Shown: positions 11,566 through 28,407 of the stretch, piece by piece
Numbering within the stretch: the first letter of the stretch is position 1
Layout: every line of letters starts with the position of its first letter
NCBI RefSeq assembly: GCF_011947195.1
Contig: NZ_JAATVY010000041.1
Span: 1 to 40,379, forward strand
Source: Planosporangium thailandense
GTDB taxonomy: Bacteria > Actinomycetota > Actinomycetes > Mycobacteriales > Micromonosporaceae
Length of the DNA: 40,379 bases
Direction: 5' to 3'
Position numbers and translations under genes: made by a program
Notes under the pieces: model-generated
Databases searched by the model: none
Seen by the model: the letters and a program-made list of their open reading frames with translations, nothing else
What the model was told of the DNA's origin: nothing

Positions 11566-11593
11566 CTGTCCACAGGCACCCTCGCTGTCCACA
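11566..11593. promoter_or_regulatory. Two Streptomyces-type DnaA boxes (CTGTCCACA)
   Basis: CTGTCCACA occurs at 11566-11574 and 11585-11593, same orientation, 19 bp apart, about 90-110 bp upstream of the Tad operon start. Both fit the relaxed actinomycete DnaA-box consensus. They may bind DnaA or be part of an unrelated operator. Confidence 0.45.
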
Positions 11594-26938: not shown

Positions 26939-26947
26939 GACCGACCC

Positions 26948-26988
26948 GATCTTGGGGAGTTCGACATCGGGTCAAACTCCCCAAGATC
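26948..26988 (+). terminator. topA terminator with alternative fold
   Basis: A perfect 14-bp stem pairs 26948-26961 with 26975-26988 around a 13-nt loop. An alternative 8-bp stem pairs 26943-26950 with 26966-26973 and excludes the first three pairs. No U tract follows. It also faces the convergent oxidase gene and could serve both. Confidence 0.75.
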
Positions 26989-27033
26989 CCGATTGCGGCG
27001 TACCTCAGGTCCGATATGTCCCCACAGAGTGGC

Positions 27034-27086
27034 TGTGGATAACTCTGTGAATTGTGGATAACCCTCGTACGAACGGCTGTGGATAA
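27034..27086. promoter_or_regulatory. Cluster of three perfect DnaA boxes (TTATCCACA on minus strand)
   Basis: TGTGGATAA occurs at 27034-27042, 27053-27061 and 27078-27086, all in the same orientation; each is the exact reverse complement of TTATCCACA. They fill the gap between the topA terminator and the end of the convergent oxidase gene, whose stop codon starts 1 bp later. No dnaA, dnaN or AT-rich unwinding element is nearby, so this is not a typical origin. Confidence 0.65.
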
Positions 27087-27087
27087 C

Positions 27088-28407
27088 TCACCCGAGGATC
27101 CGGTCGAGGTATCCGTTCGTGAAGACGCGATCGGGATCCAGCGCGTCCCGGACGGCCTGGAAGTCTCCGAACCGCGGGTACGCCGACGCGAAGTAGGACG
27201 CGTCGCGGAAATGCAGCTTGCCCCAGTGCGGCCGGCCTCCCAGCGCGGTCGCCGCGGCCTCGAACCGCCGGAAGTACTCCTCGTAGGGCATCCCCACGTA
27301 CTGGTGGATGGCGATGTAGGCGGAGTCGCGGCCGTAGCCGTGCGACAGCCACAGGTCGTCGGCGGCCGTGAAGCGCACCTCGACGGGGAACACCACGTGC
27401 GACGGCAGCGCCGCCACGATGCGCCGCAGCGCCGCGAACGCCTCGGGTAGGGCCTCGCGCGGCAGCCCGTACTCCATCTCCACGAAGCGCACCCGGCGCG
27501 GCGTGCAGAACACCTCGTACGAGGGCGCGGTGTACGTACGCGCCGACAGCGCCCGGGCGGCCACCCCGTTGATGGCCGGAACCAGCCCCGGCACCGCGCG
27601 CCCGAGCCGGCAGGCACCGGCGAAGACCCGGTTGGACAGGAGATCGTCGTCGAGCCAGCCGCGCCACCGCGAAAGCGGCGCGTCGTTCACGGGTACCCGG
27701 TTGTTGCGCTTGACCTGTACCCGGTCGGTGTAGGGGAACCAGTAGAACTCGACGTGATCGTTGGCCGCGACGAGCGAGTCGAGATCGGCGAGGACGGACG
27801 ACAGCGGCGCCGGCTCCTCCTCGGCCCGCAGCGTGAACGCGTCGACGCAGCGCAGCGTCAGCTCGGTGACGATGCCGAGCGCGCCGACGTTGACGGCGGC
27901 GGCGTGGAAGACGTCGGGCGACGAGGAGGTGGAACAGCGCAGCACCTCGCCCTTACCCGTGACGAGCTCCAGGCTGTCGACGAACGTGGACAGGCACCCG
28001 AAGCCCGCCCCGGTGCCGTGGGTACCGGTGGCCAGTGCGCCGGAAATCGTCTGGGTGTCGATGTCGCCCAAATTGGGTAGCGCCAGCCCGTGTGCCGCGA
28101 GTACGGCGTTCAGTCGGCGCAGCGTCATGCCGGCCTGTACGGTCGCGAGGCGGGCCGTCGGGTCGATCGAGACGAGCCCGTCGAGTTTGCCGAGCTCCAC
28201 CCGTACGCCCGAGGTGGCTGCGGCGGCGGTGAAGGAGTGTCCACTGCCCACGGCCTTGACCGGCAGCCCGTCGGCCGCCGCCGCGGCGACCGCGGCGACG
28301 ACCTCGTCGCGACTCGCCGGGGCAACAATTCGGGTGGCGGTGCTCGACGTGGTGCCCGCCCAGTTGGACCATGAGATGTGCGTCACAGCTATGTGAATAC
28401 TCTTCAT
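27088..28407 (-). CDS. FAD-linked sugar 1,4-lactone oxidase-like protein
   Basis: The 439-residue protein has a VAO-type FAD-binding domain (about residues 15-180: TRIVAPASRDEVVAAVAAA, VGSGHSFTAAA, LPNLGDIDTQTISGALATGTHGTG) and a C-terminal ALO-type substrate domain ending in FGDFQAVRDALDPDRVFTNG. It belongs with D-arabinono-, L-gulono- and related lactone oxidases or alditol oxidases; the true substrate is unknown. The His in GSGHSF is where some relatives bind FAD covalently. No signal peptide is seen. The gene is divergent from a TetR regulator that probably controls it. Confidence 0.92.
   Translation of the reverse strand: MKSIHIAVTHISWSNWAGTTSSTATRIVAPASRDEVVAAVAAAAADGLPVKAVGSGHSFTAAAATSGVRVELGKLDGLVSIDPTARLATVQAGMTLRRLNAVLAAHGLALPNLGDIDTQTISGALATGTHGTGAGFGCLSTFVDSLELVTGKGEVLRCSTSSSPDVFHAAAVNVGALGIVTELTLRCVDAFTLRAEEEPAPLSSVLADLDSLVAANDHVEFYWFPYTDRVQVKRNNRVPVNDAPLSRWRGWLDDDLLSNRVFAGACRLGRAVPGLVPAINGVAARALSARTYTAPSYEVFCTPRRVRFVEMEYGLPREALPEAFAALRRIVAALPSHVVFPVEVRFTAADDLWLSHGYGRDSAYIAIHQYVGMPYEEYFRRFEAAATALGGRPHWGKLHFRDASYFASAYPRFGDFQAVRDALDPDRVFTNGYLDRILG

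Follow-up and report, generated by a model that had tools for sequence, protein, structure and literature searches.

Behind topA, the window (the whole stretch of 40,379 bp of Planosporangium thailandense DNA that was analysed) carries a compact cluster of three predicted DnaA boxes. We lean, with some caution, towards a non-origin, oriC-proximal DnaA-binding cluster that would titrate or modulate DnaA and help to prevent untimely re-initiation. As in a chromosomal DnaA-box cluster, consensus boxes lie close together outside oriC (three exact boxes in 53 bp), oriC is near, and the boxes are conserved among close relatives, here within the genus. Several DnaA molecules would bind to the three head-to-tail boxes of high consensus, probably in a cooperative manner. 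Lying about 0.2 Mb from oriC, the cluster would be doubled soon after each initiation, and the doubled cluster might take up free DnaA or modulate it, by titration or through its nucleotide state. The lower level of free or active DnaA could then curb untimely re-initiation, much as described for clusters in Streptomyces and Bacillus or for datA. A titration or reactivation site had already been suggested in the initial annotation, and a titration or modulation site gives the best fit (present in 4/4 genus genomes searched, head-to-tail, oriC-proximal and away from promoters), whereas the regulation of topA, also suggested there, is unsupported.

Structure of the box cluster

Three perfect TTATCCACA boxes had been described on the minus strand behind topA, and three exact matches were found there (Table 1). 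They are arranged head-to-tail on the same strand, with their starts 19 and 25 bp apart. Inside the gap, the topA hairpin comes first and the boxes follow, the third being separated by one base from the stop codon of the oxidase gene. In 2-kb steps, the window has a GC content of 66–76%, compared to 55% in the gap between topA and the oxidase gene and 45% in the box cluster itself. The RNA structure of the box region shows no excess over shuffles (z +1.1).

Table 1. Features of the topA–oxidase gap and its surroundings (positions in the window), with a recurrent array found in relatives
Feature	Position	Strand	Evidence
topA, DNA topoisomerase I, 918 aa	24182..26938	+	Pfam Topoisom_bac E 4e-116, Toprim, four Toprim_C_rpt stretches
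Convergent intergenic region with the cluster, 149 bp	26939..27087	.	55% GC
Strong hairpin 3' of topA, probable terminator	26948..26988	+	RNA fold of 26939-27000: -31 kcal/mol, z -4.2
DnaA box 1 (predicted)	27034..27042	-	Exact TTATCCACA; exact in 4/4 genus genomes searched
DnaA box 2 (predicted)	27053..27061	-	Exact TTATCCACA; exact in 4/4 genus genomes searched
DnaA box 3 (predicted)	27078..27086	-	Exact TTATCCACA; exact in 3/4 genus genomes, one mismatch in G001
FAD-linked D-arabinono-1,4-lactone-oxidase-like gene	27088..28407	-	Pfam ALO E 1.5e-81, FAD_binding_4; convergent with topA
ThiF-like/DUF5679 array	Loci L231, L233-L242, L244-L248		Three-box array, 32+21 bp, in many relatives

At up to one mismatch, TTATCCACA has no match in the window besides these three boxes. 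The window scan likewise gave no box at up to one mismatch near the topA promoter. A DnaA site at that promoter is ruled out, the other near-boxes of the window being solely those at 11566 and 11585, far from topA. Therefore, the site gives no support for a control of topA initiation, and the regulatory effect on topA proposed earlier finds no backing in the site itself.

A near-box pair weaker than the topA cluster was observed elsewhere in the window, where CTGTCCACA occurs twice on the plus strand (11566-11574 and 11585-11593), 19 bp apart. The pair lies close to where a ParA/CbiA-like gene begins, with a T2SSE gene next in line, and a near-box pair of identical spacing is kept in the sister genome G002 (C34:27877 and 27896).

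Frequency of the boxes in the genome

The bare number of matches is unremarkable, as three TTATCCACA matches at up to one mismatch were reached in 11 of 100 shuffles of the window. One-mismatch boxes are at background level in the window (5, with 4.7 expected) and near it genome-wide (795, compared to 736 in the control). Because these counts are so close to the control and the shuffles, the signal lies in the exactness and the clustering of the boxes rather than in how many near-boxes there are. Under a first-order model of the window, 0.02 exact TTATCCACA sites are expected in the window and 3.5 in the 7.01-Mb genome, in which 16 were observed versus 1 for the reversed control. When 16 sites were scattered randomly, such a triple appeared in none of 200,000 trials. 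The genome-wide scan for clusters that the initial annotation had called for retrieved 44 exact TTRTCCACA sites, with the topA gap as the only place having three within 100 bp. Its claim that the cluster is unlikely to have arisen by chance is upheld by this uniqueness together with the random scatters. A dispersed repeat of equal density is ruled out, with 16 exact copies in 7.01 Mb. Exact direct TTRTCCACA pairs are scarce in the genus genomes, with 4, 4, 6 and 6 per genome.

Conservation in the genus and absence outside it

Conservation next to topA, a further check proposed at the outset, was confirmed for the genus: the cluster is present between topA and the oxidase gene in all four genomes searched (G000–G003) and in none of the 57 other family genomes examined. 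In the four genomes, 11 of the 12 aligned boxes are exact and the spacings are 19+25, 19+25, 19+26 and 20+20 bp. The length of the gap varies from 104 to 274 bp, with no alignment outside the boxes. In all four, a single base separates the oxidase stop codon from box 3, which has one mismatch in G001. G001 has six boxes and near-boxes, three of them exact and all in one direction, spaced by 21, 21, 35, 20 and 20 bp. In G002 (L224, 12070-12865), the oxidase gene is broken: about 155 residues are missing and its pieces fall into different frames. The three boxes beside it are nevertheless all exact; therefore, the boxes are not kept for the oxidase. Strong hairpins behind topA are also predicted in G001 and G003, i.e. 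in three of the four species, and RNA folding gave no strong hairpin behind topA in G002.

Judged by the named relatives of its TopA, the studied genome falls within Micromonosporaceae. Outside the genus, 58 family genomes were sampled at topA, one of which (G084, L100) was discarded because its sequence stops short of the gap. None of the remaining 57 Micromonosporaceae has an exact box or two near-boxes within 250 bp behind topA, although the oxidase gene is convergent behind topA in 18 of them, its end lying within about 155 bp. The arrangement of the genes is therefore older than the boxes. Taken together, the 57 genomes lacking the cluster and the 18 sharing the arrangement indicate that, as judged from the sequences compared, the topA cluster is a gain at genus level. 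Its absence at this place from all 57 means that the control does not universally depend on it, a point against the titration reading.

The search was extended to 700 bp behind topA. Among the 57 family genomes, this gave one exact TTGTCCACA in a single genome (L084, at 251), while two others (L190 and L207) each have a pair of near-boxes separated by hundreds of bases. A set of 80 named topA loci was also covered, four of which had less than 700 bp left (L120, L131, L135 and L183). The sole case among the 80 loci with four exact TTRTCCACA behind topA, at 180–550 bp, is Rhodococcus rhodnii (L169). Its layout differs, with TTGTCCACA on the plus strand and TTATCCACA on the minus strand, twice, and these boxes are perhaps of independent origin.

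Distance to oriC

A single copy of dnaA was found, on contig C27, with the box-binding Bac_DnaA_C domain at 108.8 bits. It is adjoined by dnaN, with boxes in between that include an exact TTATCCACA at C27:195411. In G002, one contig holds the topA cluster at 12.9 kb, gyrBA at 208 kb and dnaA at 217.9 kb, i.e. a distance of 205 kb between cluster and oriC. The contig of the window is collinear with the start of this G002 contig, and C27 starts about 2.2 kb farther on. Based on this collinearity at the contig ends, the distance in the studied genome is about 224 kb. The earlier remark that no origin genes are near is thus correct for the window itself and does not extend beyond it.

In 20 family genomes outside the genus, topA and dnaA are roughly 0.34–1.05 Mb apart as calculated from coordinates, three of these distances being measured across a contig end on the assumption that the contig is circular. 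As topA itself is oriC-proximal in the family genomes compared, the short distance to oriC is a property of the gene and not of the cluster alone. This is evidence against the titration reading, since the location of the cluster may be incidental.

Box arrays elsewhere in the family

Exact direct TTATCCACA pairs, 10–39 bp apart, were found in 35 of 37 family genomes versus 2 of 24 genomes from other families of the order, while direct pairs of the reversed control were found in none of these 61 genomes. Out of 150 pair spacings, 27 are 11–13 bp, 80 are 17–22 bp, 28 are 30–33 bp and 15 fall elsewhere. The 150 include eight from the studied genus as well as overlapping spacings within triples and orthologous ones, for which a set reduced to one per genome and spacing (103) corrects only partly. 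In this set, R is 0.42 at 10.5 bp, with a best period of 10.6 bp, a value reached by 0 of 20,000 draws under the null of uniform spacing. When the full set of family pairs is used instead, the best period becomes 11.4 bp (R 0.39). Regarding the topA cluster, the 19-bp spacing fits the helical phase and the 25-bp spacing does not, the latter counting against the titration reading, as does the 11.4-bp period.

Among 300 family genomes, 60 have exact direct triples. Locus positions are available for 30 triples, and 16 of these share one place, between a ThiF-like gene (a match below Pfam's cut-off) and DUF5679/YgjP genes, mostly with 32+21 bp spacing (Table 1). dnaA could be located in nine of these 16 genomes; three of the nine distances cross a contig end and were left out, and in the six genomes read directly the array lies 0.86–0.93 Mb from dnaA. 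The studied genome has boxes at this place as well (C38:435019-435653; L042, 5020-5654).

Several further arrangements were observed. Genus g12 has a different recurrent triple of 51 bp with 21+21 spacing (L250, L252, L254-L259 and further g12 genomes). A spacing of exactly 18 bp, at scattered places, accounts for 12 of the 14 direct pairs in G010 and 11 of the 18 in G007, suggestive of paired boxes spread over the whole genome. In the studied genome, one exact box and two near-boxes are found at C27:47777-47839 (L045) near a radical-SAM (CofH/MqnC-like) gene, and G035 (L060) has an exact pair between the homologues of the flanking genes.

The gap between gyrB and gyrA was inspected in the sample of 61 genomes, of which 58 were retained (G008 and G027 had no gyrB match, G084 partial matches only). 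At least one exact TTRTCCACA is present in 35/58 and at least two in 27/58, 31 bp apart in 20 of these 27, and at least two near-boxes are present in 38/58 (L260-L317). In the studied genome, this gap holds one exact box and two near-boxes.

A broader conjecture, which we find doubtful but worth stating, is that Micromonosporaceae carry distributed, helically phased head-to-tail arrays, gained and lost by lineage, which would couple initiation to supercoiling at gyrB-gyrA and topA, with the topA cluster as a recently born member. If true, this cluster would be an array caught in the act of arising, and two array places would be at topoisomerase loci (gyrB-gyrA in 38/58 genomes, topA in the genus).

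Alternative explanations

The position of the cluster brings two other roles into view. DnaA might couple initiation to supercoiling via topoisomerase genes, topA here and gyrA elsewhere, given the boxes 3' of topA in the genus and those in the gyrB-gyrA gap of many relatives. Such a link between DnaA and supercoiling is possible as a general matter. As an account of this cluster we consider it rather unlikely, because the boxes at topA sit behind the gene with none at up to one mismatch near its promoter, and because gyrBA lies a mere 8 kb or so from oriC, so that its boxes may have a part in initiation instead. The gyrB-gyrA boxes in many relatives lend indirect support and make a link between DnaA and topoisomerases worth testing, no more. 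DnaA bound to the boxes might also act as a roadblock that stops RNA polymerase between the convergent genes, shielding topA from oxidase transcripts or the reverse. DnaA of E. coli can block RNA polymerase at its boxes, the cluster is flanked by the stop codons of the two convergent genes, the one-base distance from the oxidase stop to box 3 (with its mismatch in G001) is seen in all four genus genomes, and G002 lacks a strong hairpin behind topA. However, three of the four species already have strong hairpins there, the G002 boxes are exact although the oxidase gene is broken, and the cluster is missing from 18 relatives that share the gene arrangement, making a roadblock an unlikely explanation.

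The identity of the binding protein is a separate matter. Exact direct pairs in 35/37 family genomes versus 2/24 from other families of the order would also fit a protein other than DnaA that binds TTATCCACA in Micromonosporaceae, but the same nonamer is found between dnaA and dnaN (C27:195411) and beside dnaA in G001 and G002 (L318 and L319), and G003 has TTATCCACA at the dnaA promoter with TTGTCCACA on the opposite side of dnaA; we give this explanation only a slim chance. A neutral chance cluster would be compatible with the intergenic position and with the absence from the same place in the 57 other family genomes examined. It is very improbable given the random-scatter statistics and the retention of the boxes in four species despite diverged spacers. 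Finally, a box cluster in a locally AT-richer gap could be a minor or former replication origin. We regard this as extremely improbable: the neighbours are topA and the oxidase gene, with the only dnaA found being on C27; the cluster still has 45% GC and the gap 55% (base composition alone was examined); and the dnaA–dnaN gap with its boxes lies elsewhere, on C27. No initiator gene adjoins the cluster.

For a role in the timing of initiation, the genus-specific cluster and the box-free relatives offer a natural before-and-after comparison, while the regular spacing seen in box pairs and the boxes within the gyrase operon provide concrete sites for testing an effect of DnaA on supercoiling.

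Comparison with known systems

Searching titles and abstract starts in the open-access literature, no report was found on DnaA boxes behind topA or on box clusters in Micromonosporaceae, and little was found in the literature searched on limits on DnaA in actinobacteria other than Streptomyces. DARS1 and DARS2 of E. coli have a three-box core according to a figure legend in PMC5742627, as does the topA cluster. DARS raise DnaA-ATP and, unlike the topA cluster, are not called oriC-proximal in the passages concerned. The essential boxes of datA are all in one direction according to one of two reviews (PMC5742627 and PMC4585315), and the topA boxes are likewise all on the minus strand, the six in G001 also sharing one direction. 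However, datA needs IHF and promotes DnaA-ATP hydrolysis. Minimal datA is given as 183 bp in one passage of the review (PMC5742627) and 262 bp in another, compared to the 53 bp of the topA cluster.

According to passages of PMC5742627 and PMC4585315, untimely initiation is repressed in Streptomyces coelicolor and Bacillus subtilis by clusters of DnaA boxes near oriC. For B. subtilis, one passage of PMC5295017 describes a strong effect only if all six clusters are removed, leading to early initiation, while elsewhere in the same paper they are described as having no significant role in initiation. Based on these passages, the B. subtilis clusters resemble the topA cluster in being outside oriC and differ in that six act together, in another phylum, and no common descent is implied. 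The S. coelicolor cluster is described there as actinobacterial and outside but close to oriC, like the topA cluster. A table in PMC4285127 gives TTGTCCACA as the high-affinity box for both S. coelicolor and M. tuberculosis, in contrast to TTATCCACA in the topA cluster, which counts against the titration reading. The topA cluster is thus new as a site, and of a kind already known from other bacteria.
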